64,000 nucleotides of DNA from Xanthostigma xanthostigma (lineage: Eukaryota; Arthropoda; Insecta; Raphidioptera; Raphidiidae), in assembly GCA_963575645.1 (NCBI GenBank), contig OY754469.1, positions 13,844,001-13,908,000 on the forward strand, given 5' to 3'. A program made the position numbers and the translations under genes. Each line of letters begins with the position of its first letter. Position 1 is the stretch's first letter. Positions 29,067 to 62,995 of the stretch are shown here, in pieces. The notes beneath the pieces were generated by a model. The model was given only the letters and a program-made list of their open reading frames with translations. It made no database searches and was not told the origin of the DNA.

Positions 29067-29139
29067 GGGGGCGTAGCTCAGATGGTAGAGCGCTCGCTTA
29101 GCATGCGAGAGGTACCGGGATCGATACCCGGCGCCTCCA
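29067..29139 (+). tRNA. tRNA-Ala (AGC)
   Basis: A complete 73-nt cloverleaf. GGGGGCG pairs with CGCCTCC and the discriminator is A. The anticodon loop TTAGCAT lies between CTCGC and GCGAG. The T arm is CCGGGATCGATACCCGG. A T-rich stretch follows within 20 bases. It looks functional. Confidence 0.96.
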
Positions 29140-31516: not shown

Positions 31517-33749
31517 ATGGCCAAATTAATAAATATATTGTTACAACGAAATGACTGCAATATACCCTGGGGTATTGAAATTGCTGGCAGGTATCATTTA
31601 AATGAACCACTCGTCATAAATGAGGCAAGTACCTTAATTTTTTTAATAAAATTATCAATCTGTAGGATTTTATTGAAATTAGCAGTGTAATATTTGTATT
31701 AACTGATGCAGCTTTCAAAATTTATTGTAACTGAAAACATATCGGTAGGTATATTAGATTTCATTATTTACGTTAAAACAAAATTTGACCTCAATATTAC
31801 TTTAAACTAAACTCAATATTAATTTTAATAAATGTTCACAATATCAAAAATATTATAGTTGAAAACAATCTAAAATCATTTTCTGTACTGCGCAAGATCT
31901 CAGTAGAACTGCGGAATATCTATGCATAGATATTTTCAAAATATATAAAAATAGCCTGAAATTATTTTCCGCTATGTTATTACAATGAACTAAAAGCATA
32001 CACTACATGTAAATAAAGTCGTTAAGATAAAAATAATCTCGTTTATACAAATGGTCTTGATTTCCGTATTTTATAATAGATGTCACCACTATGCGTAAAT
32101 TCTGTTATTTATTATACAAGGTGTTACTTTCAATAGGTAGTACAAAAAAATTAAGAATATATATTTTCTAAACAATGTATATAGTATGATTAAGAAAAGA
32201 CCATTAACAGTAAATCATAATATATAATTTAATATATAACTACCGCAATAGTGCCAACACTTTTTAAACTGGACCACGATACAAATCCCACCTAATTACC
32301 TATAGGCAAAAAATATCCCACTACTCATTTTTGTTACATTTTCTCCAATCTTTATATTGACGTCACAATTTTTAACAGACGTTAATTTTTCGAAATTATT
32401 CATACTAATTAGTTTGTTACCGTTCTCTGATAATAATTAATCAATACATTGCGACTAGAGAATTGAATCCTTATCATAATTTTTAGGTTTATCCCGGCGC
32501 CATTGCCGCTCAACATATAAGTCCTGGAGACATAATTCTAGAAATTCAAAACAAGAAATCATCTCAAGTAACAGACAGTGAGGCTGAAAGAATTATAAAC
32601 TTTCCTCAGAGAGAACTTCAAATCATAGTATTAAAAAATAACAAAAAATATGTGCCCATACCGAGACCCGTACAAAAATCAATTTCGCTTCCGCAAGTGG
32701 TCAAAACAAATGACAATTCGAATTTTCAACAATTGGTTCGAAAATCACAAGTGAGAAGTGGCGTTGAAAAAAATAAATCGTTTTTTGAATCTATATCAAA
32801 AAATCAAGCACTCAATAATTTTGCCAGTCATATCGCAAATTTGCCTAAAATAAGTTCAAGCTGGCAGAAAACATCCAGAATTACAGAAGGCAACATCGAA
32901 ACTGATCATAAAGAAAGGTTTAAAAAAGAATCTTTTACTGATACGAATACAAATTTTGATAACGAATTATATAAATTTAAAGAAACTATTCATTCACCAT
33001 CGTTTGATTCTTCAGAAAACAAAACTTACAACCGTTCACATATAAAATATAATGATGAAAAAAGTGGCATAAAAACGCAAATATTTGCAGAAGAATCCAA
33101 ATCACATTACAATTCGTTCAAATCTTCAACTTTTCCGAATGCGGCAGCGCAAGTCAAAGACGATTTTCATAATTTTTGGGATGATACTTCAAGGAAATGT
33201 TATTCATTTTGGGATGATTTGAAAAGCAATGATTCATTTAGTAGTTTTGGAATAAATTCCCCAATATCAAAACAATCCCGTTCAAGTTTATCATCAAAAG
33301 GAAATTTGACTAGGGGTCCTAAAAAGCGATATTCATTTTGGGACGAAATGGGCAGTGACTCGTGTGATAGTTCCGATACTATAAAATTTAACGAAAATAG
33401 AAAATCTAAATGTGATTTAATTATCGATTCGTCACCATTTGATACTATTTTTTTCCATGACATCAATTTAAATTCTGATCCATTTTTTACTTTTAACAAT
33501 GCAAAAACAAATATGTTTAATGATGCGTTTAACAGAAGACAAACATTTTTCGACAAAACCGATACAGCTTTTAAAATGAATAATAAAAAATATAATTCAA
33601 AACCCAGAAGAAATCTGAATAGACGAGATGATTCACTTTATGAAGCCAGTGAAGAATACAGTGATAGTTCAGCTATGGAAGATGTATATTTCAGCGCTGA
33701 AGATGAAGAATCTGCAAGGTCGCAACCGAGTTTCAGTACTTTTAAGTAA
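31517..33749 (+). CDS. PDZ-domain protein, ALP/Zasp-like, about 456 aa, 2 exons
   Basis: Exon 1 (31517-31624) ends AATGAG and is followed by a GC donor (GCAAGT). Exon 2 starts 32487 after TTTTTAG and reads to TAA at 33749. Residues about 4-88 form a PDZ domain: PWGIEIAG is the carboxylate-binding loop, as PWGF in Zasp and ALP proteins, then VINEVYPGAIAA, SPGDIILEIQ and ELQIIVLK. The rest is low-complexity, rich in Ser, Asn, Asp and Lys, and likely disordered. A short motif (N/S)FWD(D/E) occurs three times, with W at residues 267, 278 and 321. No LIM domain follows here. Zasp proteins bind alpha-actinin at muscle Z-discs, and a cytoskeletal role is inferred only. A GTAAGT at 33746, just before the stop, may allow splicing to further exons not seen in the window. 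Confidence 0.8.
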
Positions 33750-37943: not shown

Positions 37944-39021
37944 AATATACAGGGTGTCCCATTAAGAATGGGACATAGAACAACCGCAGATTCTCCAATT
38001 CAAAATAAAACGATTAAGCGAAATATGCTTAGATAAAATGTTGCTCGTTTCCGAAATACAGGGTGTTGAAGTTGAAAACTGAAAAATTATTAATGTCCAT
38101 AATTTTGTTAATACACCGTATAATTTTACTCAAATCGGCACACTTGTTAAATATCATAAAATGCACCTAACAATAAAAAAAATAGTTCAGTACGCTCTAC
38201 CAGTGGCGTACGGCAGGAGTAAGTAATGCTTGTGCCCCTTCTAAATGTTACGCCGCTGTCTAAATTTTAATTTTGACTATAATTTTAATTTTTTTGATAT
38301 TTTCTAAGTCAATAATGTACACTTGTTAGTTTGTTGTAAAGTCATTGGTTTTCGAGATATTCGCAGTTAAAGATAGATAGACATGTACTTTTTATGTGTA
38401 TTATTATTAATAATATTCATTTTTCCAATTTTGTCTTAAAACCAAACAAAGTAGAAACTTATGTAATGAAATGTTTAAAATTTTTTTAAAAATTTCATTA
38501 CATTAGTTTCTACTTTGTTTGGTTTTAAGACAAAATTGGAAAAATGAATATTATTAATAATAATACACATAAAAAGTACATGTCTATCTATCTTTAACTG
38601 CGAATATCTCGAAAACCAATGACTTTACAACAAACTAACAAGTGTACATTATTGACTTAGAAAATATCAAAAAAATTAAAATTATAGTCAAAATTAAAAT
38701 TTAGACAGCGGCGTAACATTTAGAAGGGGCACAAGCATTACTTACTCCTGCCGTACGCCACTGGTAGAGCGTACTGAACTATTTTTTTTATTGTTAGGTG
38801 CATTTTATGATATTTAACAAGTGTGCCGATTTGAGTAAAATTATACGGTGTATTAACAAAATTATGGACATTAATAATTTTTCAGTTTTCAACTTCAACA
38901 CCCTGTATTTCGGAAACGAGCAACATTTTATCTAAGCATATTTCGCTTAATCGTTTTATTTTGAATTGGAGAATCTGCGGTTGTTCTATGTCCCATTCTT
39001 AATGGGACACCCTGTATATTT
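37944..39021. repeat. 1.08-kb near-perfect palindrome with transposon-like ends
   Basis: Both ends read ATATACAGGGTGTCCCATTA inward. Arms of about 537 bases meet with almost no loop at about 38482, where only a few bases fail to pair (for example GAAACTTATG against GAAACTAATG). Elsewhere I could find hardly any mismatch. Each arm includes a GC-richer block (CAGTGGCGTACGGCAGG to TTACGCCGCTG), perhaps an older hAT MITE present before the arm was duplicated. The terminal ACAGGGTGTCCC is shared with the element at 42675-43168. Confidence 0.95.
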
Positions 39022-40487
39022 TTAACATTTGGGAAATTTCCATTTTTTTCTCTATATAAGTTCATGTAAAATTTATCATAAGGTTACATAAGAAAATATT
39101 CTAGGAAAACGTTATCGTTTTATTAATTAAACACAAAGTAATAATTATTGTGCAAATATTAATATGAATTTGTTTTTTAATCAATAACGTTTTTCTCAAA
39201 TATTTTCTTATGTACCATAATGACAACTTTATATGAATTTATACGGAAGCAAATGGCAAAAAATGTAGAAAATTACAGGAAGTGTGATAGATAGAAAATA
39301 GTAATGGTGCGAATTTGAATTTTGAACGTCAAAATTTTGCGTTTCCTATGACTTAAAAAAAAGTGGAAATTTGGGCACATCGAGTTTACGTACTGGATTG
39401 TTTCATTCAAATAGAGTTTATGATCCATTAATAAAAGCGTGTTAAAAATTAAATCTGGCCACGTTAAAAAAGAGAAATAATTTTTTTCTGGCAGAGTTCT
39501 TGCGAGTGGCTACGATTTTTATTCGCATCAATAAAATGTTCGCGCTGAGCACACATACTGCGGTGGCATTAGCCCTGACGATTCGAGTTCGACCTCCGGT
39601 CAGACACAAATATATCTCTCATGGTCCAACGTGTGATGCTGATCGTTCAGAGATGATGATATGATGTTTAGAGGCAAGGCAGCTCTGCTGCGAGAGCAAT
39701 AAACTATCGCCCAATGGCTATTTCAGAACCGTGACTGCTTCTTCTGTTGCAAATTCAATACACACACACACATGCAATACCTACACGGCGTCCAGTCCAG
39801 ATTCTCTTCACAAAATTCACACGTCTGTTTCAACGTTAAAAATACGTATAAAGTGATTTCTGGAGCGGTTACAGAAACAACTGCACAAACAAGTTGTGTT
39901 TTCTTAATAGACGATCAGTTCGGTTTTTTTTAGGCTATTATAAAGTAGATGTGGTGTCCGGTTATTAATTAACCATCATAATCTCCGTTGTTCGAATTCT
40001 GCTACTATAACCCAAAGATTGCAAACTGAAAGATGGTAAAGTAGAACAGCCATTGGCTGGACTTCGCCGAAATGAAGATTGGATCCAGTTCGATAACTGG
40101 ATGTGCCCAAATTTTGACTTTTTTTAAAGTCGTAGAAAACGCTAAACTTTGACGTTCCAAATAAAAAAAAAAACTTTGCGGATTATTCACAAATTTCCTC
40201 AAAAATACGTAAAAACTTTTCGTCTTTCACTGTCATTTTTTTAATCTAACCAATCAGAAATCATATATATCTACACGTCATAGCAGCTGGTGTAGAATTA
40301 TTGTATTACTATCTCACTTTATATACACGACCCCGTAATTGTTTTTTAAAAAACTCCCCAAACACCCTCCCCTTTTCATTGCGCAAAAAAGAACGCCATC
40401 GCATCGACACGATCCCGTAATTGTTTTCTCAATTTTCAATTTTTCCAATGGATATTTTGCACATCGAGTTATCGTACTCTAACCATG
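39022..40487. other. intergenic, no gene seen
   Basis: Around 39560-39600 'gattcgagttcgacctccgg' resembles a Pol III B box, so a SINE remnant is possible but no A box or copy supports it. Confidence 0.4.
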
Positions 40488-42674: not shown

Positions 42675-43168
42675 ATACAAGTGTCCCACGACATAACTGC
42701 CGTAGCCCGGGACTGTGTTGCTGGGCGGATTTCAAGTCAAAAATGTTTAATGCTCATATACCCGGAACGCTATCCTAACTGAGCTAGAAGCATTTGAAAT
42801 TTTAGATAAGTATATAGTAGTAGGAATTCCCTACTAATTTAAAGATCATTTAAAAAGAAATCGCTTTATTGAATTTAGTTGTTCAAAATGTCCACCCAGT
42901 TGGTGTATACAGTCTAGCTCTTCTTAGAATTGAAGTGGTAGCTCTGCGAAGAGTCTCAGGATCAGCACGAATAAATACTAATGGTGATTCACAGCCACCT
43001 GGTCTTTTAAGTAATAACAAAACCAACAGCCGAACCTAATATCTGCATTAGTGGGCTTACCTATTAAAAATTTCAAATGCTTCTAGCTCAGTTAGACATT
43101 TTTGACTTGAAATCACCCCAGCAACACAGTCCCAGGTTATGTCAGTCATGTCATGGGACACCCTGTAT
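42675..43168. mobile_element. TIR element with GTGTCCC ends, transposase trace
   Basis: Long inverted ends of about 110 bases: TACAAGTGTCCCACGACAT (left) and the inverse of TACAGGGTGTCCCATGACAT (right). Both include GGGACTGTGTTGCTGGG and TTTCAAGTCAAAAATGT. On the minus strand at 42880-43010 a frame reads ADPETLRRATTSILRRARL, then GGHFEQ, like the C-terminal end of Tc1/mariner-type transposases. It is internally deleted. Confidence 0.7.
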
Positions 43169-45481: not shown

Positions 45482-45691
45482 CAAAAATAAAGAATAGTTA
45501 CTTCTTACCACAACAGTTTTATTAGAGGATGTACATTTCGGGAGCTATGCTCTCATCTTCAGCAAACACTATAGTTTAGCAGCAAACACAGTTTAGTGTT
45601 TGCTGATTGCTGAAGATGAGAGCATAGCTCCCGAAATGTACATCCGCTAATAAAACTGTTGTGATAAGAAGTAACTATTCTTTATTTTCAA
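45482..45691. repeat. fold-back element, about 95-bp arms, PLE-like hairpin motif
   Basis: Both ends read inward through AAATAAAGAATAGTTACTTC. Arms differ at only a few bases. Each arm carries CTGAAGA, a short hairpin, then GAAA (45610-45636 plus, 45536-45562 minus). The centre repeats 'gcaaacac'. Confidence 0.88.
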
Positions 45692-45727
45692 CCACAGTGC
45701 TCATAATATTTGTATATACTTTTGTAT

Positions 45728-46177
45728 GGGCTATGTGCACGGAGGCGGAGTTACAAATTTTTCGATGCGAGCGTTTGTGGTGAGCACTAGGGGAAACTTC
45801 GATCTCCAATTTTCCGTAATGTCAGTGAGCAATGTTTATTAAAAGTGAAAGTAATTATAATTTTATAAAGTTCTTTAATTATACAAAGAAAACATAGGAA
45901 AACTAAGCGATCTGGAAATGCTTGTGTTCCAGGTTGTTGCGTTGATGGTGATTTAAGTAAAATAAAGACCATTGGCGCCCTAAATTGACGTTCCGCTGTC
46001 AGTGTAAACAAATTAACATCAGTTGTCCTTATTACATTTTTTTTTGACACATCATGGCCAACTAAAGTTTTTGACTTATCACCATAAAAACATGTCGCGA
46101 TTTCCATAAAAAGTGAGTTCAATAATTCTCTATTACCCACTAGCGGCGCTAATAGGCTTAGTGCACACAGCCTATAC
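45728..46177. mobile_element. MITE of about 450 bp, copy 1
   Basis: One end reads TGGGCTATGTGCACGGAGGC and the other, inverted, TAGGCTGTGTGCACTAAGCC, so these are short imperfect TIRs. A second copy in opposite orientation is at 49254-49703, about 90% similar by eye. The 117-residue minus-strand ORF in this copy is not kept in the other. Confidence 0.75.
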
Positions 46178-46624
46178 TTAGTAACTCATGTAGTATCCAC
46201 GAGCTCTGTAACCAGGACACTCAGCTCGAGCGTAGCTACTGTGTAACGCACACACGTTCATGGCTTGCATGTGTGTAGTGTCTGTGAAGTTAAACAGCTT
46301 TGGTAACTTTGGCGAAAACAAGTGGAAAGAACCGAAATTTTCCCAGGTAGTGATAACAGCGCCATTTCGCGTGCGCCAGAAAACACAGCAAGCATAGGAA
46401 GCTAGGTCTCCTAGTTACAAACTTCTTGGTAGTATCGATGACAAAACAATAATCTGATAACAATGACCTGATGCTGCGATCAGGATAGTCAGCTCACCAT
46501 GCAACTTTTTAATAGCAGGTAGACGTTGTTTGTGTTTTTATTTTGGTCGGCAGAAGGTTCTGATAATAATAAAACAAAAATTAGTGATGTCCTCAAAAGA
46601 CATTTATAATGTAAACTTGAAGTT
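46178..46624. other. unique-looking sequence, no gene seen
   Basis: Less AT-rich than average (46200-46480), without a supported exon. Confidence 0.4.
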
Positions 46625-46884
46625 TGTGAGTGCAAACTGAATGACAAATATAGCTGGATATGAAGTTATCAAGACAAATCAAGAGGGTATAGTAATAATA
46701 AAATTAAAAGAACGAATTCATCGATCGACGTGACAAAATAAAAACTATAAATTATAAAACAATGTTTTTATTGTTTTCGTCGTCGATGAGTTCGTTCTAT
46801 TAAATTATATTCTTACAATACTCTCGATTTGTCTTGATAACTTGATAACAGTTATTTTTGTCATCCAGTTTGCACTCATTAACT
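46625..46884. repeat. fold-back MITE, about 105-bp arms
   Basis: The left arm (GAGTGCAAACTGAATGACAA, then TTATCAAGACAAATCAAGAG and GAACGAATTCATCGATCGAC) pairs with the right arm (GTCGATGAGTTCGTTC, then CTCGATTTGTCTTGATAAC and TTTGCACTC). Arms are roughly 85% matched. The loop is AT-rich. Confidence 0.85.
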
Positions 46885-48617
46885 AATACGCACCACGGAT
46901 CTAAAAGGTTCGTAAGTTAGTCACACACAGCGTCGCAAAGGCACAGTTTAGAGCCGTTGATACTCCCATCACCTCCCAGCTACCTGCACGGAACGTGCGC
47001 TAGTCGATGATTGACCGTGATCGCTCGTTGCCTTTGTCACTTGTCGCTTTCCTGCTTTAAAGTACAGTCCAGTACGATTTTGTCAAGTTATTATTGCTAT
47101 TTTAGTTTTATTGAGTTGCGAGTTTGTAGTTTTTCAACAGACTGTACAAGCGCAAGTTCGCATTCGCATCTAACTTCCGAGCCTTTTAGATTCGGGGCGC
47201 GTATTATACATTGCAATTGTTTTTTTAAGGGCAGTAGTATTCGTAATCAAAATTAGGACCTTGCATGGTTCCTCTATGTTAGGTACTTCATAATTCTAGA
47301 ATGAATCGTATTTTCCATATTTAAAACAATATTTGATGGCAGGAAATAATATAGTTATACAATCACCGTTAAAAGTTGAACGTCCACTGGCAGACCACAA
47401 AACTCGTGCGAGTTCTGTATAGCGACTTTCTTGCATTCAGGCGCTGTTCTGCCCTCCGAATCAGCACATGAACATCATCATCAGATACTCCCGGTGTGCA
47501 ACTCCTGATCCACAATTTATGGCGTGTTATTTAAATAGGCGTTAAGCTGCATTTACCGTCAGCACGTTAGTACAAATAATCTTCTATCACTTAGAAGTGT
47601 TCATTGAATCTATCTCATTTAATCAACACCTTTGACTGCTTTGACTCGGCAGGTTGTACAATACATGATACACGGCTTGTGGCAGTAGTGACTATATAGT
47701 GTCACAGTGTATATTGTTATTTGCTGCCAACAGTGTGAAGAAAAAATAATAATTGAAACATGGGGGTGATTCATGAATTAATTACCCCTCCCCCTCATTC
47801 CTAGCTCGTGTTAGGATGTACATCCAATTGATCTTGCAAAACACCCATTAAAAATGTCACTGATAACGGTGCCCCTCAAGAGAGACGTTTTCGAAAGTGT
47901 GCCATTTCAATGGGCGACTGGCTGACACTATTAGTCTGTGTTTTTTATCCTCGTAAGTGTATTTTTACCTGACCCACTCTTTAAAAATACCGAGAGCAGA
48001 CAAGAAAAAAATAAACGAACAAGATTTCGTTTAAAAATTTTCAATAGCGGGAAGTTAAAAATTAACTGGGTTCAGTAATTGATGACTCCCTAGAGATGGA
48101 AATCCCGAGAGCTTTAAATAAAACAGTTCTTCTTCTGTGCAGCGTTAGTGCGCACTAGAAATATTGAAATTTAACTTCGTACGAATAAATGTTAATCATA
48201 GTCAGTATGTGCCAAATTTTAAATAGCTTTACAATGTTATATTTTCATTCCACTTTATCAATATGTCATAACTTTTTAAGTATTAAACTTATATTTTATT
48301 TCACGTTCGTGGCATACATTAATTTGGCATTTTAAAGCTGAATGGCCAGGTGTATCTGTAAGCATTTCATGTAATTCGTTCTTTTTTTTCATGAGGAAGT
48401 CTGGCCAAATCCATTTTGTCGGTATAACTGGCATATTATTCAAAATAAAATGTTTATACTAGTAACTCAAGGTTCAACAAACTTAAATGTGTTTTCTTCA
48501 CAGTTGATTGCTGGTTGATTGCTCTTGTTATATGTATTATGTTCATTTTCATTTGTTTTTTAAACAGTGGTGTCTGGTCACAGTGGCGTACATAATAAAA
48601 TATTGTTAATAATGTTC
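46885..48617. other. no supported gene; GC-richer block at its start
   Basis: 46900-47230 is richer in GC and CpG than average, as for promoters or 5' exons, but no ATG-donor pair can be defended. 47380-47480 and 47760-47940 are also moderately GC-rich. Confidence 0.35.
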
Positions 48618-49025
48618 CGATGAAGGAAGGTTTTGGTTGAGGATCATAAATAAATAAGCTTTACCAATGTTTCGCTAGTGGCCAACGTTTCGAAAAATTT
48701 ATTTTCATCTTCAGGGCCTCAAGCTGGTCGAAAGGTGGTAAATTGTTAAAACAACATACATGATCATATTATTATGGGTTAAAAAAATATTAATATGAAC
48801 ATCTTATTATAAAAAACTATTAAAATTATAAAATTTTTATAAAAATGTCACGCAGTAAAATTTTTTTTTTTTTTAATGAAATATTTGTCTGACAATATAT
48901 ATCCAAAAAGCATTTTCTGTGGACTGCTATTTGATACTGATTTGATTTTTCGAAACGTTGGCCACTAGCGAAACATTGGTAAAGCTTATTTATTTATGAT
49001 CCTCAACCAAAACCTTCCTTCATCG
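48618..49025. repeat. fold-back element, about 85-bp arms, PLE-like hairpin motif
   Basis: Ends CGATGAAGGAAGGTTTTGGT and inverse. The arms run through TTACCAATGTTTCGCTAGTG to CGTTTCGAAAAA. The left arm goes on through the motif at 48687-48714 (minus: CTGAAGA, hairpin, GAAAC). The middle, about 240 bp, is AT-rich. Confidence 0.85.
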
Positions 49026-49253
49026 TAGTATTCTTAATAATGAAATACACAAAATATAGCACTATTAAAAATTATTATATTTTTTCAATAAATGAAGTTC
49101 CTTACGTTATTTAAACATCGATGGCGAAACAATTTGGTGGTGAGGGGGGCTATAGATCCATAATCGTTTATAAAAGCTTATATTTAAAGCTTGATTTGCT
49201 TTGTCCCAATAATTATTTATTTATACACCCAATTCTTTTTGATCGATAAGTAT
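49026..49253. other. spacer between repeats
   Basis: No gene or repeat recognised. Confidence 0.5.
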
Positions 49254-49703
49254 AGGCTGTGTGCACGAAGCCTACTAGCGCCGCTAGTGGGTAATAGAGA
49301 ATTATTTAACTCACTTTTTATGGAAATCGCGACATGTTTCTAAGGTGATAAGGCAAAAACTTTAGTTGGCCATGATGTGTCAAAAAAAATGTAATAAGAA
49401 AAACTGATGTTAATTTGTTTACACTGACAGCGGAACGTCAAATTAGGGCGCTAATGGTCTTTATTTTACTTTAATCGCCATCAGCGCCACAGCCCGGAAC
49501 ACAACAAGCATTTCCAGATCGCTTATAGTTTTCCTATGTTTTCATTGTAATTAAAAAACTTCATAAAATTGTAACTATTTTCACTTTTAATAAACGTTGC
49601 TCACTGACATACGGAAAATTTGAGCTAGAAGTTTCCCCTAGTGCTCACCACAAACGCTCGCATCGAAAAAATTGTAACCCCGCCTCCCTTCACATAGCCC
49701 ATA
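49254..49703. mobile_element. MITE of about 450 bp, copy 2, inverted to copy 1
   Basis: Begins TAGGCTGTGTGCACGAAGCC and ends GCCTCCCTTCACATAGCCCA. It follows copy 1 (45728-46177) in reverse order throughout. Confidence 0.75.
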
Positions 49704-49821
49704 GAAGTAAATATAGGTATATTCTATATTTTTCAAATAAAGAAAATTGTCGACCAATTTTTTCAGACCATATATTGACAAAAATTATACAAAAATTTAA
49801 ATCAAAATAACAAAGGATGAC

Positions 49822-49850
49822 GTTTCGATTCGGATTTGGATCTTCTTCAG
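49822..49850 (-). other. isolated PLE-like hairpin motif
   Basis: The minus strand reads CTGAAGA, a variable hairpin with GATCC and GAATC, then GAAACGTC. It is the same pattern as in the fold-back elements at 45.5, 48.7 and 57.5 kb. No inverted partner was seen. Confidence 0.55.
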
Positions 49851-50144
49851 AAAAATCTAAAAAATATAAAAATTAATAGTATTAGTTATTTAATATTATC
49901 TAATAGAATGCACGAAGATTTGAATTTTATATTCTATTTTATTATACTTTGCCTTCCATCACCAATACAATAGAATCCGGATAGAGCGACTGTCAAGAAA
50001 CCGGTGATATTACATCGTACTAACCACAGAAACTGTTCTGTGGTACTAACCGAACGGCGCACAAAACGGCCTGTTTAGTTTTCAGTTTTGTTTCAGTTAA
50101 TTATTATAATTTATAATATTGTATTGTCACTGGAACTACATACG

Positions 50145-50258
50145 TATGCAAAATTTCAGCTCAATCGGAAACCGGGAAGTGGATCAAATTTAACTTGCAA
50201 GATTTGATTTCAGACAGACACCGGGACAGGTGAAACTAAATAAAAACTTGTAAAAAAG
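50145..50258 (+). mobile_element. non-LTR 3'-end fragment
   Basis: 'caaaatttcagctcaatcgg', then 'gacagacaccgggacagg', then an A-rich end ('aaataaaaacttgtaaaaaa') have the usual look of a LINE or SINE 3' UTR in insects. Family not fixed. Confidence 0.5.
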
Positions 50259-50501
50259 ACACTTCACTTGATAATTTTTCAATGTTTGGGGGGCCTGAAG
50301 TATCTGAAGAAATTATTTTGTAACACAGTTGGATAAAAATCAACAACATTGAACTTCAAATAAAAAAAAATCATTGTAGACTTCCCTAAACAAAGTTATA
50401 TAAACATTTTTTTAGGCGAACAGTTGAATATTTCCGTATCGTTTGTGTAATCTGGTCGCTATGAACGTAAATAAAACAGCAACAGGAATCTGCATTTAAA
50501 G

Positions 50502-51039
50502 CAGAGGCTCCCAAACTTTTTTGTCTCGTAGACCACTTGCCATGTTTTTCGGTTTTGGGTAGACCCCCTGCTTATCTGATATTGATTTTTTGCAAATTCA
50601 TTAATTTCAAATGTATTTTTGACAACCGGTATAGTGCTACTCACTTTGAACGATTTAAATATAAACGGTAGTGAAATGTAGTGTGAAATGTCTAGTTTTA
50701 TACATTTATTAATTAGATTCGCATTAAAACGAACCAAATTAAAATTTAATTTCTGTTACATAAAATAACTAAGCAAAAAATAAATGCTTTTAGTGTGAGG
50801 GATGAACCTGATGCTTTAATAATAAATTTTCAACATTTGGCATCAATTTAGTTAGATTTAATCTTAAATCTCTTCGGTTAACGATGTCCAGTTTGTTTCT
50901 TTTTTTTGTTAGGAGATTCACTATCGTTGACCCCCATTTTCATTTCATGGACCCCCAATTTTTCTTCCCCCTGATATGGACCCCTTGCAAGTTGTCGTCG
51001 ACCCCTGGGGGTCGATATAGACCACTTTGGGAATCACTG
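50502..51039. mobile_element. hAT MITE, 538 bp
   Basis: Starts CAGAGGCTCCCAAACTTTT and ends CCACTTTGGGAATCACTG. The exact 8-bp duplication ATTTAAAG is at 50494-50501 and 51040-51047. 'gaccccc' blocks lie inside both ends. Confidence 0.92.
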
Positions 51040-51894
51040 ATTTAAAGCAACAGGCGGTACCACAATAAAGATTTATACTATATGTCCATACAATATTCTC
51101 TTTTTTCGAGCTAGACACATAAATTTACTATGCGCACTTGAAAACATTACCCGCGATAATACTTTATGTACACCCACTTAAAAGTTTATTTTTGAGTCAA
51201 AAATAAAGTCACTGAGCTTCTCTTGAAAACATTATCATTTTATTGGCAGTACATTAAACTTCTTGGCGAGAATTTACTTTTATATATATAGAGTGTTTTC
51301 TATAAAATTACGGCGGATATAAAAACTCATAAAGATATCGACTCTTCGAGTTAGAGAAAGACGATGTGTGTAAAGAATTTATAATCGCATTAAATGTCTG
51401 ATCGAAAAGTAGGTACTTAGTAACTAAATTTTGAATTGAAAGGACGTTCTACATCCTAATAGCGGACAATAAAACGCAGTTTTTTTGGGTCTAGATTTTT
51501 TCCTGATGCGCTCATAGTATCAATTAATATTTGCCATATACGATATTTATGCGCATGAATATTGTATACTGTAAAGCTTTAGTTTCCTAAGATAGAGTAG
51601 TCCGACCGTAATATATTGGTCTTAATATGAATGACCTAACAAAAAAACGTGTGCATAGAAATAAAAAACGTCAAGTAACTAAAAAGCGTAAAATAAAAGT
51701 TTTCAGGTTGCCACCGATTTAATATGTGATAATAATTAAATTGGTATCGACCTCAAGACTTAATATTATTTTACGCTATTTAGTGAGACTTTTTTGAAAG
51801 TTTTTTATTTTAAATTTTTTAGTAGTCTTTTTTAGTGTATAATGACACCGAAGCGCAACGTTCACGCGACAACTATAACTTTGGCAATATTTCT
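51040..51894. other. intergenic, no gene seen
   Basis: AT-rich, with nothing recognised. Confidence 0.5.
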
Positions 51895-52050
51895 TTAATT
51901 TTTCTTACCTAAATCGCTGAACCGATTTTGCTAAAAAAAGAATCGTCGAAATCGATTCACAACCAGCGAAGATATCGACAGACAGACATACAAAAAAAAA
52001 CACATAATCGAATAAGAGAACTTTCTCCTTTTTTGATGTCGGACGTAAAA
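51895..52050 (+). mobile_element. LINE 3'-end fragment
   Basis: 'aaatcgctgaaccgattttg', 'gacagacagacatac', an A-run, then 'gagaactttctcc' and 'tttttgatgtcgg' match the common 3' UTR of arthropod RTE-like LINEs. No coding part remains. Confidence 0.6.
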
Positions 52051-53189
52051 AAGCGGCATTCATTTACTTCTATGTGCACGTTTTCTATTAAGTCATTCAC
52101 CGTTATATTACGGCTGCTATATGTATTATTACGATACCTCCATCTTTGGGAAATTTAATGTAACTTGAATTCGAAATCTAGATTGAAATTATAAAAACTA
52201 TTTTATAAGGAAAATCAATAGATATTTACGATTTAAAAATAGGTATTTAATCTACTCGGAAAATGTCTTATTTATTTTGATAATATATAATATAGTAAAC
52301 AATTATTAGAATAGATAAGATGTTATTTACGATTAACATTACAATTTATTTTTTTTCTCTATAATTCGAACGTCAATGGAGATACTAAAAATAGCGAGTT
52401 ATGAAGTTTTCTATTTATCAAGGATTTCCGGATTCAGATGTTTTAAAGCTTACAGTTTTGACTCTCTGGCATTGAACTTTTAACGATTAACATTTTATTA
52501 CTTCGAGTTAAGGAAGACTAACAGACGTCCATTATATATTGCTAATTACTGTAAAAATATCTGAATAGTTTGTTATTGCGTTTAATTAATTATTATTATT
52601 TAAAGCACAGAACAACGTCGTGAAAATATCATCTATCACTTGTATATCTATGTGACTAAATTTTGATTGCGTAATTTTATAAAATTTTGTTACATTACAG
52701 TGACCCATTATTATAATAATAGTCCGCTTAAAATAGGTCACAGTCACATAAATTCAACGCCATCTGGATCATTTCAAAGAAATAATTAAGAAATAAATAT
52801 TGTGTCGCAGGATGTTAAAAATATCTGTAAAATAGTTTCCATTTGCTAAAATGTTGAAGCGCGTTTGCAGGAAGGTCGTTCAGGGATGGACAAAATTTCA
52901 AACGTATAAGAATTGTCTGACGGCAACGAATCACAAATTAGAACTTTTTGGTAGTGATAAAATAATTAATCCAGATTATATATGGCATATCACAAATTTT
53001 AATATCTATAATGATTAATGGTATATCTTTTCACACTTTATAAGAATTATATTACTTTTATTTTAAGATAAAACATAAATGATAAACCTACAACCTTCGT
53101 GCAATAGAAAATGTTCAATGTTAGTGAGCAGATTTAAGAAATTTCGTTACGTTAAAACTCAGTTTAAAAATCGTGAAGGGGGTGATGTG
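52051..53189. other. intergenic, no gene seen
   Basis: AT-rich, with nothing recognised. Confidence 0.5.
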
Positions 53190-53496
53190 CAGTGATGTAA
53201 CAATAGGGTATCAGAACGGGTAAAATGCCTCGGGCCCCTGGCCTGAGAGGGCCCCCGGAACGAGAGGCCGTTACGACATGAGGAACCTAATATTTATTAC
53301 AAAATATTTATTTTGTATTTAATCAATTTAAGCTAGGTATTAACTCAAGAATATACACGAGTTATACAAATATTTACTTTACATCGTGATTTAAAAAGAT
53401 TAAACTACAACGTGAAGCTTTTTTATATTAAGAGCGGGCCCCATCCAATGAATTTGTCACGGCCCACGGGCCTCAGATGGTATAGTTACGCCACTG
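53190..53496. mobile_element. hAT MITE, 307 bp, relative of 22609-23068
   Basis: Starts CAGTGATGTAACAATAGGG and ends GTATAGTTACGCCACTG. The exact duplication GTGATGTG is at 53182-53189 and 53497-53504. It lacks the inner insertion present in its relative, so it serves as the empty site. Confidence 0.92.
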
Positions 53497-53886
53497 GTGA
53501 TGTGCCATGGTTACAGCATGACTAGCAGTGGCTGCTTGTTGGTCCCAAAGTTGGTGAAGTGCTAGGAGAAAATTTGTTCTTAAACTCAGGGGCATAGGCA
53601 GAAGTTTTGTTAAGACGGGGTTGGAACGCGGAATGTAATAAACATACTTGATTTTATCGCATTGTTTTTAACTCTGGTCTTCCTTGCTTATACATCATAC
53701 CTTAGAAAAATCCTTCTTTATTCCAAATAAATTTTTTTTGCTAAATATCAAACAAGGCCAGCAAATAAGTTTTTCTAAATTTAGACTACTGCACAGCCAC
53801 GTGCATTCAGAAAACCAGAAATGTGTAAATTTTATATTATATGACCTGACGCTTTTTAACTTCCTTCCTTACTTTAAATATTTTTT
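53497..53886. other. intergenic, no gene seen
   Basis: Nothing recognised; the 68-residue ORF at 53684 has no domain. Confidence 0.5.
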
Positions 53887-54498
53887 ATAGCGGTCCCGCC
53901 CGGTTTCACCCGGGTGCAAAAGAACGAATGGGGATGGAAGGGACATGAGTACACACATTCATCTTAGTTTACCGAGATGAATGTTGTGTCCAAATTTCAT
54001 GATGATCGGAGTTACCGTTCAAAAGTTTTTGTCGATAAAGAGCAGTATTTAAACTTTTTTTAACTAATAATTTTTTTAAAATGAATTAAATAAAATTAAA
54101 ATAAATTTAAATGTAAGCCTTAGAAGAAAGCAATGTAAAAAATAAAAAAATAAATAAAAATATATTCACCCAAAGTGAGGCTCGAACCCACGACCCTGAT
54201 ATTGACAGTCGCATGCGCTACCGATTGACCTACATGAGGTTGTGTTCTTTCATCACTAATATGAGTATATCTACTTAGTGCATTTCACATGAATAGAAGC
54301 TTATTTTTGAGATACTTTTTGCAACATTTTTCATTAAAGCTCCGCTCCTAATGGTCGTAGCGTAATATTATATAGCCTATAGCCTTCCTCAGTAAATGGG
54401 CTATCCAAAAAAAAAAAAAATATTCAATTCGAACCAGTAGTTCCTGAGATTAGCGCGTTCAAACAAATAAACTCTTCAGCTTTATATATTAGTATAGA
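53887..54498 (-). mobile_element. Helitron with tRNA-like block, 612 bp
   Basis: The minus strand starts TCTATACTAATATATAAAGC (from 54498) and ends CACCCGGGTGAAACCGGGCG, then GGACCG and CTAT at 53887 (CTAG expected). It is collinear with 26133-26733, including the tRNA-like block at about 54166-54240, with T arm GGTCGTGGGTTCGAGCCTC. Confidence 0.85.
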
Positions 54499-55484
54499 TT
54501 GTCATCTTTCCATTGAGATAGTACTTACGGTGTTTGTATCAAATTACGTACCACGTCGTTGATCGGATTCATCGTTGATATTTCATTGATTTGACAATGA
54601 CTTCAGATTGTGAGCATACATATTTCTCCATATAAAAAGCATATTAGAGTTTTAAATCGATCTTGCTTGAAAAATAATTCATTGGTTGGGACATTTTTTT
54701 TCTTAAACTGTGTATACATGTATTTAGAATCGTTTTTTGTACAGTTTCCACTTCGAAACAACGTTTTTCTACGCATTTTGATCAAAATTCGGCTGCTTGA
54801 AAAGCGATCTTTCTCTATGTAGAACAATCATTTGGTTTTAGGTGAGTATCTCTAGATTACATGGACTTTGAATACGATATTTAAACTGCTCCTGATGTAT
54901 GGAAACTGTAATTATATGGTAACAATCTAAGACCATTGTCAAATCAAATTTTCTGCAACCCAGCAGTAGTTATAAAAATCTGGATATGAGAAACGATCTA
55001 AAAGATAGGTAAAGGTGCACTTCGCTGCTTCACTTGAATAGCCGCTACTGATAACTTGTATATAATATAATATGTGATTTAACCATCCCTTATTTAAACG
55101 AAGAGTCGTTTATAAAAATACAATTTTTCTTAAAATAAAATTATATTCACGGTCACTGTATTTCAAATTAATTTAAAATCGGATGGCAAACTTTCAAGCG
55201 TCGGTTGATATTGAGTGGTTGATACGTTTGAAGAACCTTCAAGTAGCGTCGACAGTCATTTCTTTCGAACATATATTTTTTAATAGCTGTGTTAATATAT
55301 ATTTTCTTGATTCAAGGTTTACATATTGTTATGTCGATTCAATAAATTAAAAGTGTAAGCGTATCCCAGTTAAAAAAGAACTCATATAGACGGAGAGCTC
55401 GCCACAATAGATTTTCTGTGTGTCGAACTCGAATATACCCAGTAGCCGGATGACAAACCTGAAATTTTTATATATGATATTTAT
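54499..55484. other. intergenic, no gene seen
   Basis: Overlapping ORFs at 54603-54827 on both strands are mirror shadows of AT-rich sequence. Confidence 0.5.
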
Positions 55485-55867
55485 ACTAATATTATAAGCC
55501 TATATTTATGATGGCAGACACAATAAAAGGTCCGCTGTATGAGTGTGATGATTATACAACAATATGAGTGCGAGTGAGAGCATCCGATGACTTTTTTTTG
55601 ACAGCTTCATTAAGTTTATTTGTTTACATACACACGCAAAGTAGTCCATGCGTTTAAGAAAGAAAAATTCCATGGGAACAAATAAACAACTTAAATTTCA
55701 CGAAGCTGTCAAAAAAAGCCATCTAATGCTCTCACTCACACTCATATGTTTGTATAATAATATCATCGCGCTCATACAGCGGACTTTTTATTGTGTCTAC
55801 CGGAATGCTATACAACCGGAGGAAATGTCTGCCATCATAAATATAGGTTTATATTACTATAATTATT
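55485..55867. repeat. fold-back element, about 145-bp arms
   Basis: The left arm (CCTATATTTATGATGGCAGA, then GACACAATAAAAGGTCCGCT) pairs with the right arm in reverse (AGCGGACTTTTTATTGTGTC, then TCTGCCATCATAAATATAGG). The right arm carries about 30 extra bases (near 55803-55830) that are absent from the left arm. Confidence 0.85.
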
Positions 55868-56507
55868 AATATATTTTTTTTATTTCCCGCAGAATACAAA
55901 TAATAATTGTGGCTCTATATTTTTTTTATTATTAAACAAACAAACAAAAAAATGTGCATCGGCTTATGCCACTAGCACTGTTTACATGGTATAATAATTC
56001 GAAATATAATATAAAATATGGCAAGTAGCAGTTTTAATTTATAGATAATATTTAAGTTGTTAGTAGTGGCTCTATATTTGTCTGCGCATTCGATACATAA
56101 GAAATCCGACGGTCGACTCTGAGACGTTAAACTTGTATCTATTTTTATATCATAATATCGTAATATAACCGATAATTCGATTTAACAATAAATTATTGGA
56201 AGGAGTGCCTGCCAAAAGCATTTGAATTTTACAGTTTCTTTTTTTTTTATTTGCCAATTTCTGTAGCAACAATTTACTGTAAAAACTGCCAATATTTTTT
56301 ATCTATTGAAAAATAAATGAGCCGCTCAAATGTATTTTCATTTATTGAGCATAAAATTATTTTTTTTAATTTGCGGAAATTTTTTGATTTTTCTTTTGAT
56401 ACCTACTTAATATGACGTTTCCGTGGCTCATCTGTTAAAAAATCCCAGTTATTCCTGGGTTCTATTCTGAAAAATGCTAAAAGTGTCAATTGTATTTTCA
56501 ATTAATA
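55868..56507. other. intergenic, no gene seen
   Basis: AT-rich, with nothing recognised. Confidence 0.5.
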
Positions 56508-56889
56508 CAGTTTAGCGAAATTGAAGGCACCGGGCTTTTTATTGCGCTTTAAAGAGTTTGCGTTAAACGGAGAGTAAAGGGAACAATATAATTTTACAAT
56601 TATGAGGTTTTAATTTTGAGTAAATTAAGCGAAAAAAAATTATAATCTGTTAAGTTTGTTTGTCGTTTTTTACTATGCCAGTATTTTAAGTACAATAAAC
56701 AAATGAACACATTTCTAAGAATCCCATTGTTGGGGTCTAAATAATGACGTATTGTTTCGCTATTGAGAGTGGTTGTTACGGTATATAGAGTCTTTCAATA
56801 ACAATAACAATACCAAACAAACCTTAGCAATTTTTACGTTTCAAAGAGCTTTTCGTTAAATAGAAATTCGCTATATAGAGTTTACACTG
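56508..56889. mobile_element. pogo/Tigger-like MITE, 382 bp, uninserted copy
   Basis: Starts CAGTTTAGCG and ends GAGTTTACACTG, with TA on both sides (56506-56507, 56890-56891). It is the reverse-strand relative of 1714-2748 and runs unbroken (TTCTAAGAATCCC) through the place where that copy holds a Harbinger element. Confidence 0.85.
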
Positions 56890-57408
56890 TATTTAAAAAC
56901 GAATTGAAAATACTAGTTGATATACTAGGTCCAGAAAAATTATAGCGGTTGGTGGCATAAAGGAGAAAATATTTATAGATTAATAATTATTTTGACGAGT
57001 TGAATAAAAATAAAAATTGAAATATTTATTACAACGACCGCAGGTAAAAAGTGAAAATTACTTATTTATGACACATGCATGAGGTCATTTTTTTAATGAT
57101 TGGTGTACTCAATGCATTTCGGACTTCGGTAGAGCAACATTCCTCTCATATAATAAATATTTTTTGTGCCTTTATACCTGTAACATCTGTTTAAAATATA
57201 TACTTTTACTTTCTTGAAGAAGGTTTTGGTAACTTTCATCTTTAATTTATATAAATTACGAAATACTAAAGATAATAATAATTAATAACAATTTCCACGG
57301 TCTCTTCACATAATAAATCACAAGGCAAATTGGCAGATGTCTGTTATTTAGTAAATACATGGCGACTTCAATGCCCTCAAAGGTTAAAACCGTACTGTTT
57401 TTTCATTT
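56890..57408. other. intergenic, no gene seen
   Basis: Nothing recognised. Confidence 0.5.
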
Positions 57409-57634
57409 TTGGAAGATTGAAGGATGAATCTTGTTGGCATAGGATCAATGAACTAAGCAAAAACTGAAGGTTATTTTATTGCATTTTATTGTCTGACGTT
57501 TCGGCAAACTTTATGTCATCTTCGGAGAATCAAGTGTGTCGAAACGTCAAACAATAAAATGCAATAAAAAAAACCTTCAGTATTTGCTTAGTTCATTGAT
57601 CCTATGCCAGCAGGATTCATCCTTTAATCTTCCA
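57409..57634. repeat. fold-back element, about 95-bp arms, PLE-like hairpin motif
   Basis: Arms run from GGAAGATTGAAGGATGAATC through GGCATAGGATCAATGAAC to GACGTTTCG. The tip holds CCGAAGA, a hairpin, then GAAAC (57498-57525, minus). Arms differ at roughly one base in twelve. Confidence 0.88.
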
Positions 57635-57774
57635 ACATTTAAACAGGATCATCATTACTCTAAATTATTAGAGTTGTTTTTCACAATCATACTGTTTTTT
57701 GTTGCACCGGAAATAGTTAAGAGATAGCACAGGCACTGCGATACCGCCCCTTTAAGTTCAGCTGCCTAGAGTAA

Positions 57775-58329: not shown

Positions 58330-58785
58330 AAATGAGTAAATCTCTGACTGGAGCTTGAATCCAGGAAGCTCACATGGGAAAAAGATACTTGTAGGCCTTT
58401 CAAACGGGCTTGTAGAGGACTTGAACAAACTCAAAAAATGGTTGCAGGGCTCTTAACCGGCCATGCACTCCTGAGAAAACATCTACACACAGTGGGGATT
58501 CATCAGGAATCGACACAGTGTAAATTTTGCGAAATGGAGGACGAAACAGTCAACCATTTACTGTTCGAATGCGCGGCCCTAGCCTACAGACCAACCATCT
58601 TTGGATACATTGATGAGAGCGGAGTAATTCCTCAGGACAATCTATTCACCGATCTTCTGCGAGTTCATGAGAAGGTCCAAATTATTGAAGGACTAGATCC
58701 AAGATAAGGGGATTTTAGGATGACGTGCATTAACGGGTAATTGGCCATAACCCTTATCTTATTCATTTATTCATTCATATATTTC
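58330..58785 (+). mobile_element. LINE fragment, RNase-H-type C-terminal end
   Basis: The frame through 58707 reads FKRACRGLEQTQKMVAGLLT, then GHALLRKHLHTVG, then CKFCEMEDETVNHLLFEC. It is the tail after RNase H in Jockey/LOA-like LINEs, with a CCHC-like C-x2-C-x8-H-x4-C cluster. A 3' UTR with 'attcatttattcattcat' follows. The rest of the element is absent. Confidence 0.75.
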
Positions 58786-61620
58786 ACCCACTTTGGCAAG
58801 CAGTTGAAAATGTTGAGGCTATAAGCAGTTGCATTTCTTGAAAGAGGTTTTATTTCTTTTAAAAATAACATCATTAGGAACTACAAATTACTCTACTGTC
58901 TACAGTAATTTATATGTAGAGCTGTTTTGTGTGGGAAAAACACACGGCATTTCCTATCTAGACAATAGATTTACACACACAGGCTGCAGTTCAGGATTCA
59001 GTGAAGAGTGAAGGCAGACGAGTCGAGTTCTAATTAATATTCACCCAACACTCGTTGTGTCTGTCTTGACTATTAAATTTTATTCGTGGTATCAAACAGC
59101 GCAAAACGCGAAAACGATGCCTATTTTGCATATATAAAGTACAAGGTTTAAATAAACTATTATGGGAAGTGATCGTACTCACAAAATTTTATTAGTAAAC
59201 AAGTGATTGAGTATGATTCAAAAGAAGGAAGGTGAAACTATGACCTCATTAATACAATTACTACTCGAATCGTGGCCACATCCAAGTTTTTTGAAATTCG
59301 TTTGGCGCGAAAATAAAATCTAAAATTATTTAATTTGTTCTGCGGATGATATAGACTTATGATATTTGCTGGTGCTGATCTATTGTGCCTTAAAATGGAT
59401 ATCTACACGAACAGGAATTTTTTTAGTTCGTGATGTGCTGGTCCGTGCAGGTATAGTGTGCGTGGTCTTTAAAAGACACATTTCTGAAATGTCTCACTTT
59501 TGATAAAAAAACAAACAGCAAAAAAATCCAAAAGTAGTTCTTACATCATCAATGTTTTTTTTGCCAAATTAGATGTATTTTATTTGTCAAGTTGGTAATA
59601 ATAACTTAAACGAAAATATTAATAGTAATTTTATAGTTTTAATTAAAATCTAATCGCAATAAAAATAAATAACAAACATGACATTTGAAAGTAAGAGTAC
59701 TAGTAAGGAGAAATGGATATAGGTACTCTACCAGTATGCAATTTCATCTTTTTATGATTTAGCATTTTTCTAATAGTGTTGACTTGGTAATTCACACGGT
59801 AAGAAAGTTAACAACATTACGCAGTAAATAAATTCATTGAAATTAAATTTAAAAAATTGACTCGCTTACATTTTATATAAACGCGTCTTGAAAATAAATA
59901 TGCAAATTATTACATTTGTGCAAATAAATGTACATTACTTTGTATACAGAGGGACCCGTTTTTATTGAAACACTATTGAGATCTTAAAAACTAATAATAT
60001 TAATCCAAGAGTTATTAAACATTTTTGGATAGATATTTGCGGCAGCGTAAAAATTTGTGTCTGAATACAAAATCGAAGATCTGGCTAAAGGATAATTAAG
60101 CAAGCTGTGAATTTTTAACTACGCGGAATTTTATTTGCAAAAAAAGTCCTTGAGTCGTTTTGAAATTTTAATACCTTCAAATATAATAAATAAGCCAGTT
60201 CATTTAGTCGGGTCTAAATAGTTGCCAGGAATTTTGAACCGCATTTACATTTCGAAGCATAAACTCTTTTACATTATTGTAATAATTCCAAGACATCTAA
60301 TAAATTTGTTTTAATTAACAATACACAGAACTATTCAGTAGGCAAATTAATTATCTAATTAATATTTAATTAATAACAACATTTTGCACTTAACCTTCTC
60401 TAAGATATTCGCATTATGATTCAATAAAATTTAATGATAAACATTTGAAAAATCTGTTACTATTTTTTTATCCTTGAAAAGAAAAACAATCGAATGTCTT
60501 TCTAATGCAATGCCATATATTTGAACTTGTACTTTGATATTCTTTCAATGCCTTCATGTTATGTCGACTTTCGCTGCTTTAAAATCAGTCAATAGATCAA
60601 TTCGTTTTCGAGGTCAAAATTATATTGATCAATAATTACATTTCTGGGTACGTACGGGTTATTGATGAGCTGTAATGTTTTTTTACCAAATTAAACATTA
60701 AAACGAGATTCCAACTCGCGAATTTTAATCTAAGAAACTGGTGACAATATCAATGTATAATAAAACATATAAAATTGAAAAAATGAATTGGTATTTATTA
60801 AGCCCAGGCAACTCGGCATTGAAAAATTTATTTGTGTATAAAATTATAACAATATACAAACAACTAAGATACATTCAAAACAGAAAATATTAATCTGAAA
60901 TCCACTAACTTGCCAGAACCATCTCCGAAAGTTCTTCACCGATTGCTTTGAAATTTTGACACAACGTTGTATTGGAATACGCGCGTGTTTTTATATTATT
61001 ATTTTGAAGATATTTTTTATTTACTGCTCCCTTTTTTGTTTAATATATTACCTGTTCACATTAAATTGTAACAATAAAAATATATTTAGGTCCTTACTCA
61101 AAACTCGGCTTTTGAACCAAGCAAATATTGGAAGCTTAAATTTTGTATTTGTCAGTAAAAGGTATATAATGCGCTTTAGTTCTTCAGTGTATTTGCCATA
61201 AGGCATTTAGACTATTGGCGTCGGTCGGATGGCGGGACCTAGGGGTCGGACCAAAATTTCTCGACGTTTCATAGCCTTCTAAGAAGTTTGGCACCATTTT
61301 TGGAAATGTCTATTTATATATGTACGGGCTATAACTTTCGAAATTTGGAGCACATATTGAAATATATCACCGCATGAAGCCTATTTAAAATGGGCCCAAT
61401 CGGGCACCCTTAAGGTGGGTTTCAGGGATTGAAAAATGTTTTTGTCCTCAAAAATACCGAAATCGTTTCAAAATTAAAATTTAACCCATTAGTAAAGATA
61501 AAATTGTACTACCAAAATTTTATTAAAATCGGCCCGACAGGACCGGACTTAAAAATTTTATGAAAACGCTAGTTTGTAGATATAGTTTTACTTATAGGCT
61601 AATGCCTATACTTTTTTGAA
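58786..61620. other. long AT-rich stretch, no gene seen
   Basis: Nearly 3 kb with no supported exon, RNA gene or paired termini. 60905-60985 ('agaaccatctccgaaag' to 'tggaatacgcgcgtg') reads like Helitron or LINE debris. Confidence 0.5.
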
Positions 61621-62995
61621 AAAAAAAAATAGCAGGCAAGGACCAGGTGGAAAATGTTGTTGAGGCTCCAACTTTAAGGGAAAAAACAATTTAAACACGA
61701 AAACATTCAAAATGGTGAAATGAGGGTGCAATTTAGGGGTTGAAGACGGTTTTCTGCGATTTACGACAAAACGTGACCTCTTAGCGGAAATTGTTCTACA
61801 CAAAAGTTGTAGATGGTAAAAAAATCTAAAACTTTTGTACCAAACACTTTTCGACATAACCTCAAATGAACCGTCAAAATGGCGAAAAACCGATTTTTCA
61901 GTATTTAATTTTTTTCTCGCGTAAAAATAATTTAATTTGCATGAAAATTTGTGAAAGTATGTCTTTTTATATCTTAAATAAGCATGATTTTTTTGCAGTT
62001 CAGAATACGACTATTTTCGGAGTTATGTACATTTTTCGAAAAAAACACCCTTATTTTCCACGAACAATTGTCTTGATGTTTTTTTGTATTTCGAAGTTCT
62101 ATAAGTGGCCATTTTAATCTTTGAAATGTCTACTTTAAAATGGTCTATGTAAGTTGGTGGTTTATTTATCGTTAAACTACTTAAAATTGCGAAAAACCGA
62201 AAAGTCTTTCTGTCGTGTATATGCTGTGATAAGGTAAATATTTTCAGTAGTATTGTAACTATAGATACTTAACAAATTTAATCGTTTGGTTCAGTCTAGC
62301 AAACTGAGATTTGACAACAAATACACATGATTTGTTAAGTATCTATAGTTACAGTACTACTCTCTAATATTTACCTTATCACAGCATATACACAACAGAA
62401 AGACGTTTTTTCGGTTTTTCGCAATTTTAAGTAGTTTAACGATAAATAAACCACCAACTTACATAGACCATTTTAAAGTAGACATTTCAAAGATTAAAAT
62501 GACCACTTATAGAACTTCGAAATACAAAAAAACATCAAGACAATTGTTCGTGGAAAATAAGGGTGTTTTTTTCGAAAAATGTACATAACTCCGAAAATAG
62601 TCGTATTCTGAACTGCAAAAAAATCATGCTTATTTAAGATAAAAAAAGACATACTTTCACAAATTTTCATGCAAATTAAATTATTTTTACGCGAGAAAAA
62701 AATTAAATACTGAAAAATTGGTTTTTCGCCATTTTGACGGTTCATTTGAGGTTATGTCGAAAAGTGTTTGGTACAAAAGTTTTAGATTTTTTTACCATCT
62801 ACAACTTTTGTGTAGAACAATTTCCGCTAAGAGGTCACGTTTTGTCGTAAATCGCAGAAAACCGTCTTCAACCCCTAAATTGCACCCCCATTTCACCATT
62901 TTGAATGTTTTCGTGTTTAAATTGTTTTTTCCCTTAAAGTTGGAGCCTCAACAACATTTTCCACCTGGTCCTTGCCTGCTATTTTTTTTTTTTTT
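61621..62995. repeat. 1.38-kb long hairpin, about 660-bp arms
   Basis: Arms 61621-62276 and 62331-62995 surround a 54-base loop. By eye the arms match at about 97-98%, with isolated base changes and small A-run length changes. Twin ORFs that seem to encode the same protein in both arms are the result of the inversion and not genes. No transposon-type termini or duplication were found at the outer A/T-runs. Confidence 0.95.

Follow-up and report, generated by a model that had tools for sequence, protein, structure and literature searches.

We analysed a 64,000-nucleotide stretch of the Xanthostigma xanthostigma genome (contig OY754469.1, positions 13,844,001 to 13,908,000; hereafter the window), in which a short motif resembling the core of a hammerhead ribozyme recurs in small fold-backs, pairs of inverted arms around a spacer. 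A sequence-only reading of the window had proposed that the motif is a hammerhead and that the fold-backs are pairs of inverted terminal pieces of Penelope-like elements (PLEs), that is, of their pseudo-long terminal repeats (pLTRs). Minimal dimer-type hammerheads of PLEs were reportedly described by Cervera and de la Pena in 2014 and by Lunse et al. in 2017. The motif copies and the one PLE-like sequence near them are the following.

9674-9705, minus strand: decayed hammerhead block, TTGAAAA, 5-bp stem II, TAA-ACGU-C, downstream of the PLE-like remnant
9870-10098, minus strand: frame-shifted PLE-like remnant, resembling the C-terminus of the PLE GIY-YIG endonuclease, with no Pfam match
45528-45562, minus strand: HHR1L, the inverted twin of HHR1R (CTGAAGA to GAAA at 45536-45562)
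45610-45644, plus strand: HHR1R, CTGAAGA, stem II with 4 of 5 pairs, GAA, the 8-nt palindrome ATGTACAT and C at residue 17 (CTGAAGA to GAAA at 45610-45636)
48684-48714, minus strand: HHR2, the best preserved copy, with GGCC:GGCC as stem I, a stem II of 5 bp and GAA-ACGU-U (CTGAAGA to GAAA at 48688-48714)
49819-49850, minus strand: HHR3, a solo copy in no detected fold-back, CTGAAGA, stem II with 4 of 5 pairs, GAA-ACGU-C (CTGAAGA to GAAA at 49823-49850)
57495-57525, minus strand: HHR4, CCGAAGA (U4 to C), stem II with 3 of 5 pairs, stem I AGA:TCT, GAA-ACGU-C (CCGAAGA to GAAACGT at 57496-57525)

Motif copies and the fold-backs that carry them

All motif sites named in the sequence-only reading were recovered close to where it had placed them. 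Five matches to the pattern CTGAAGA-N(4-22)-GAAA were counted in the window; in 100 shuffles the mean was 0.60, and no shuffle had as many as five. Since the sites at 45536 and 45610 are the arms of one fold-back, the copies amount to four independent loci and not five (45.6, 48.7, 49.8 and 57.5 kb), with the common core CYGAAGA, stem II, GAAA. The fifth plain-core match, at 23373, has no palindrome and one of four stem II pairs. When the search was confined to CTGANGA...GAA followed by a palindrome and then A, C or T, five matches were again found (mean 0.36 in 300 shuffles, maximum 4, once), a count that takes the 45.6 kb twins twice and includes a site at 43299 without stem II. A further demand for at least three stem II pairs, with G-U allowed and an offset of up to 2, left four matches at three independent loci (300 shuffles: mean 0.12, maximum 2). 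With the 9.7 kb block included, an intact core (CUGAnGA and GAA, with a residue 17 other than G) is present at three of five independent loci, those at 45.6, 48.7 and 49.8 kb. The other two are core-mutated: at 57.5 kb U4 has become C, and in the 9.7 kb block three changes give TTGAAAA for CYGAAGA and TAAA for GAAA, stem II and ACGTC being kept.

The motif-bearing fold-backs and the flanking repeats of one of them are listed here.

45484-45688: fold-back 1, head-to-head, 85-nt arms, 96% complementary, 35-nt spacer, a full motif in each arm
48601-48614, plus strand: left copy of the proposed target-site duplication of fold-back 2, 14 bp with one mismatch to 49029-49042
48615-49028: fold-back 2, inverted arms of 97 nt, 95% complementary, 246-nt spacer, the full motif in the left arm
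49029-49042, plus strand: right copy of this proposed duplication, partner of 48601-48614
57401-57643: fold-back 4, inverted arms of 77 nt (90%) and an inner pair of 44 nt (89%), 14-nt central spacer, the full motif in the left arm

Of 14 inverted pairs detected in the window, the seven with arms of at least 70 nt (a cut-off that we chose) cover 7.3% of it. Three of the four motif loci fall within these larger fold-backs (P about 0.0015; P 0.0035 for three of five when the 9.7 kb block is included). The claim that the motif loci lie in fold-backs holds at 45.6, 48.7 and 57.5 kb, but at 49.8 kb, the site of HHR3, no fold-back was detected. All three motif fold-backs are head-to-head, with the downstream side of the motif facing outward, and their arms end 44, 69 and 94 nt past residue 17. 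The right arm starts inside stem II in fold-back 2 and at the stem II loop in fold-back 4. With their tails, HHR2 and HHR4 align with a score of 77, the maximum of 200 shuffles being 51.

Fold-back 2 is flanked by a probable target-site duplication, TATTGTTAATAATG and TATTCTTAATAATG, identical at 13 of 14 positions. Its score of 11 was reached by none of 150 random place pairs, and by none of 300 (maximum 10) when both boundary settings were allowed. The boundaries given above follow this proposed duplication; repeat finding extends the arms to 48602-49041, and at those arm ends the score is 9, within background (maximum 10). Inverted against each other, the two 14-mers still agree at 10 of 14 positions, and they are partly self-complementary, so they could be an extension of the arms. 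A target duplication was sought at fold-backs 1 and 4 and none was found, which leaves one in three motif fold-backs with this mark. The missing duplications and the solo HHR3 would suit a history in which the copies are old solo pLTRs, brought into inverted neighbourhood by independent nearby insertion or by local inversion and not by one event; solo pLTRs without duplications are reported in PMC3846280 (this and the papers cited below are drawn on as excerpts). We nevertheless consider such a history rather unlikely, given that the arms of fold-backs 1 and 2 are 85-97 nt long and 95-96% complementary, that the motif fold-backs are head-to-head without exception, and that fold-back 2 appears bounded as a unit.

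Other inverted repeats lie nearby. Two of about 470 nt (45713-46180 and 49247-49713) enclose some 3 kb with fold-back 2; HHR1R on the left and HHR3 on the right stand just outside them, both directed towards them, and the surroundings of these two copies do not match (42 of 200 shuffles were as good). This repeat may be cargo between pLTRs, making a composite element, or the arrangement may be a coincidence. Fold-backs at 39314-40167 and 42681-43161 have arms of 85 and 70 nt, and no CYGANGA...GAAA core was found in them. A near-perfect palindrome at 37944-39020 (537-nt arms, 100% complementary, 3-nt spacer) is either very recent or a fold-back artefact of sequencing or assembly, and a large fold-back at 61619-62992 has 585-nt arms, 99% complementary, and a 204-nt spacer.

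Pairing in stem II, stem I and the palindrome

Stem II can be written in one register at the five loci, a register that we selected: five pairs, counted from the second base after the core and from the last base before GAA. In this small sample, 21 of 25 cells are Watson-Crick; none of the 119 other pairings of 5' and 3' strands reaches 21, and neither does any of 20000 mononucleotide shuffles. Pair 3 takes four types across the five loci (G-C, A-U, U-A, C-G and C-G). Stem II is kept by pairing and not by sequence.

At all five loci GAA (TAA at 9.7 kb) is followed by a self-complementary stretch that begins with A and ends with U. It reads ACGU at four loci and AUGUACAU at 45.6 kb, and the next base, residue 17, is C or U. 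The earlier description of the motif as often ending in GAAACGT applies to three of the four loci named in it, but not to 45.6 kb, which has GAAATGTACATC. Putative cleavage triplets of the form GUC, AUC or GUU follow the self-complementary stretch. This layout would be what a hammerhead needs if stem III is shared between two molecules, and dimer-type hammerheads without stem III, as reported from the terminal repeats of PLEs, would be expected to show it. Across the loci the palindrome varies in length but retains its outer A-U, and residue 17 is always C or U, which agrees with a dimer model; together with the compensated stem II, this makes the loci a compact natural set.

In the predicted minimum-energy fold of HHR2, stem I (GGCC:GGCC) and stem II form around both core strands; 11 of 200 shuffles were as stable as this fold, which places it close to the tail. 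The fold of the 9.7 kb block sets GUAC:GUAC off from the core and has a 6-bp stem II. The stem I pairs adjoining the core number four at 48.7 kb, three at 57.5 kb and one to two at 45.6 and 49.8 kb. The sequence-only reading had held that the motif would shrink to a chance core match if no copy had stem I or III pairing or a cleavage triplet. Stem I pairing is present at 48.7 kb and triplets were found, stem III being a palindrome and not a hairpin. The hammerhead identity is supported by the compensation in stem II across five loci, the exact stem I at 48.7 kb and the triplets after the self-complementary stretch; the motif is more than a chance core match.

An ATG stands at the start of stem II, as C(T/C)GAAG-ATG, at three of the five loci. 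From its A through residue 17 there are 25 nt in HHR2 and HHR4 and 29 nt at the locus with the longer palindrome. An inverted half-motif upstream of HHR2, considered as an ancestral pLTR palindrome, was dropped, since 139 of 500 shuffles match it and it is not above chance.

Relation to Penelope-like elements

Among the motif loci, only the 9.7 kb block adjoins a PLE-like remnant. It lies about 160 nt downstream of the remnant, where the 3' pLTR would be expected, with five of five stem II pairs. The decayed block that the sequence-only reading had placed at 9676-9706 does exist, stem II and ACGTC included, but its position is better given as 9674-9705 (minus strand). The remnant, running from 10098 to 9870 on the minus strand, resembles the C-terminal end of a PLE GIY-YIG endonuclease, and we take it as such; two weak matches in the PDB were dismissed. 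A peptide search of the window gave no convincing second PLE remnant, and a PLE-like match at 59.4 kb (E 0.029) looked like chance once read.

PLE hammerheads are described as minimal forms without helix III (PMC6155905, PMC7761336), which may cleave through dimeric motifs (PMC7761336). The copies in the window resemble them (PMC7761336, PMC6155905, PMC11167929) in the CUGAnGA and GAAA core, the short stem II, the lack of an intramolecular stem III, the ATG at the start of stem II, the copy beside a PLE remnant and the dispersed non-coding copies; the placement of the ATG relative to the cut site is as in PAc (PMC11167929). They differ in that the palindrome of these putative ribozymes is 8 nt long at 45.6 kb and 4 nt long elsewhere in the set, and in that two of the five copies are core-mutated. 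In Penelopes of Adineta vaga (PMC3846280) the inverted pLTR is shorter than the direct ones, solo pLTRs occur, palindromes at head-to-head junctions are read as self-priming, and target duplications measure 8-10 bp or are lacking. Head-to-head inversion, junction palindromes, a shortened inverted copy, some duplications and solo pLTRs are common to both systems. In the window, however, the inverted pair comes without a detected open reading frame (ORF) or direct pLTR, the arms are shorter than the 181-218 bp of the Adineta vaga pLTRs, and the duplication has 14 bp and not 8-10.

Non-autonomous retrozymes, short tandem units with a type I hammerhead that spread via circular RNA, offer another source of such copies. 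Retrozyme-like type I hammerhead repeats are reported in invertebrates including insects, and the non-LTR (lacking long terminal repeats) retrozymes of metazoans, like the copies here, place a type I hammerhead in small non-coding repeats (PMC7229834). Animal retrozymes are, however, described as direct tandem repeats of about 150-400 bp with mostly canonical hammerheads, whereas the units here are inverted, lack an intramolecular stem III and have a palindrome in its place. The only motif-bearing direct repeat consists of two 30-nt motif copies 3152 nt apart (two regions were searched, with no dedicated tandem-repeat search). We regard a retrozyme origin as very improbable.

Overall, the small fold-backs most likely carry remains of self-cutting RNA left by Penelope-type elements. 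We put at roughly 0.78 the probability that the motif is a minimal, stem-III-less type I PLE hammerhead and that the fold-backs are head-to-head inverted pLTR pairs without an ORF. We take the better motif copies as real, and most copies are probably inactive relics. The link to PLEs is partly supported in this analysis, by the decayed motif beside the remnant, by the inverted layout with one duplication and by the ATG spacing as in PAc; the proposal that the fold-backs are inverted PLE terminal pairs stands on these points. Publications already cover the hammerheads of PLEs, dispersed copies of them and inverted pLTRs. In open-access titles and abstract openings, hammerhead-bearing PLE fold-backs were not found as a class, and the key papers of 2014 and 2017 may treat them. 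The fold-backs suggest an origin of dispersed hammerhead motifs as leftovers of PLE inverted pLTRs.

A possible course of events would begin with a pLTR RNA that folds stems I and II. Two RNA copies would pair via the palindrome after GAA (ACGU or AUGUACAU) to form a shared stem III, and each dimerised copy may cleave after C17 or U17. The pLTR would be copied during PLE reverse transcription, and at the 5' end self-priming or a switch of template could yield an inverted second copy, often 5'-truncated. The inverted-pair product would then insert at AT-rich DNA with a duplication of variable length. In PAc, cleavage required protein and insertion in vitro did not require cleavage (PMC11167929); we therefore claim no role of cleavage in the formation of fold-backs.

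Several further results weigh against the reading of the fold-backs as PLE hammerhead pairs. The covariation in stem II is not a blind test, because the sites were chosen in the sequence-only reading partly for their hairpin. Copies other than HHR2 and HHR4 have a weak stem I, and every fold except that of HHR2 is indistinguishable from shuffles (as stable: 51 of 200 for the 9.7 kb block, 64 of 200 for HHR1, 118 of 200 for HHR4 and 190 of 200 for HHR3). When the segments were co-folded as dimers, one of six (HHR1R) used the palindrome for pairing between molecules and the other five paired otherwise, and in our motif scan HHR4 ranks seventh, within background. A check with covariance models, suggested in the sequence-only reading, brought no support: Rfam gave no hammerhead match over the whole window at gathering score, and its hammerhead models gave none at E up to 10 on the four stretches tried. 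Our own covariance model, R2, trained on HHR1, HHR2 and HHR4, gave the held-out HHR3 14.3 bits (E 0.31), just under the 14.4 bits of an unrelated site at 21844, and the 9.7 kb block was absent from its matches at E up to 10. A Pfam search of the remnant recognised nothing. The suggested alignment of fold-back arms to PLE sequence was marginal (28 comparisons; HHR3 2 of 200 shuffles, HHR1L 0 of 200 but by one point), and none of the arms was shown to align directly to a PLE body or full PLE.

The silence of the Rfam hammerhead models would also be expected if the fold-backs were DNA transposons, either miniature inverted-repeat transposable elements or of the fold-back (FB) type, with the core in their arms by chance. 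Such an origin is further favoured by the four of seven larger fold-backs without the core and by the duplication at only one of three motif fold-backs. We find it improbable nonetheless: three independent loci combine core, palindrome and stem II where shuffles average 0.12, stem II keeps its pairing from locus to locus through compensating changes, a like block adjoins the PLE-like remnant, and an imperfect 14-bp duplication is unlike the fixed footprint usual for a transposase.

The viral, genome-contig and phage collections searched yielded no PLE relative, which is why none of the arms could be aligned to a full PLE. In viral contigs, pattern searches matched 21, 2 and 0 stretches. The 21, inspected by eye with their flanks and untranslated, showed no pLTR-like context, and the remnant peptide matched them weakly (best E 4.2). 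Model R2, run over all 23 viral-contig loci, scored best at L022 (38.3 bits), with L023 at 14.8 bits. L022 sits within a viral reading frame of 802 codons, and hence a chance match picked by pattern can score high. A protein search of the viral contigs gave no relative. Genome contigs gave no match and then one, in a Paenibacillus contig, taken as chance; the phage collection gave no match.

As a tentative extension of the PLE reading, which we find doubtful, the fold-backs may be a separate class of miniature PLE derivatives, each an ORF-less inverted pLTR pair inserted as a unit by a PLE enzyme acting in trans. Insertion as a single unit is considered because fold-back 2 has its own probable duplication. 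If so, RNA from fold-back 1 would contain one sense hammerhead whichever strand is transcribed, longer palindromes such as AUGUACAU would strengthen dimer formation, and part of the minimal hammerheads called dispersed in animal genomes could be explained.

Other features of the window

A reading frame at 58348-58704 (plus strand) matches zf-RVT just under the Pfam cut-off (26.7 versus 27.5 bits) and, judged by this match, is probably a remnant of a long interspersed nuclear element. At 32487-33746 (plus strand) an open frame of 420 codons, whose PDZ match stays below threshold (18.5 versus 23.2 bits), is a possible host gene exon. Matches to tRNA, all on the plus strand, lie at 20557-20628, 29067-29139 and 26394-26466; the last is much weaker (33 bits versus about 60) and possibly represents a short interspersed nuclear element or a pseudogene.

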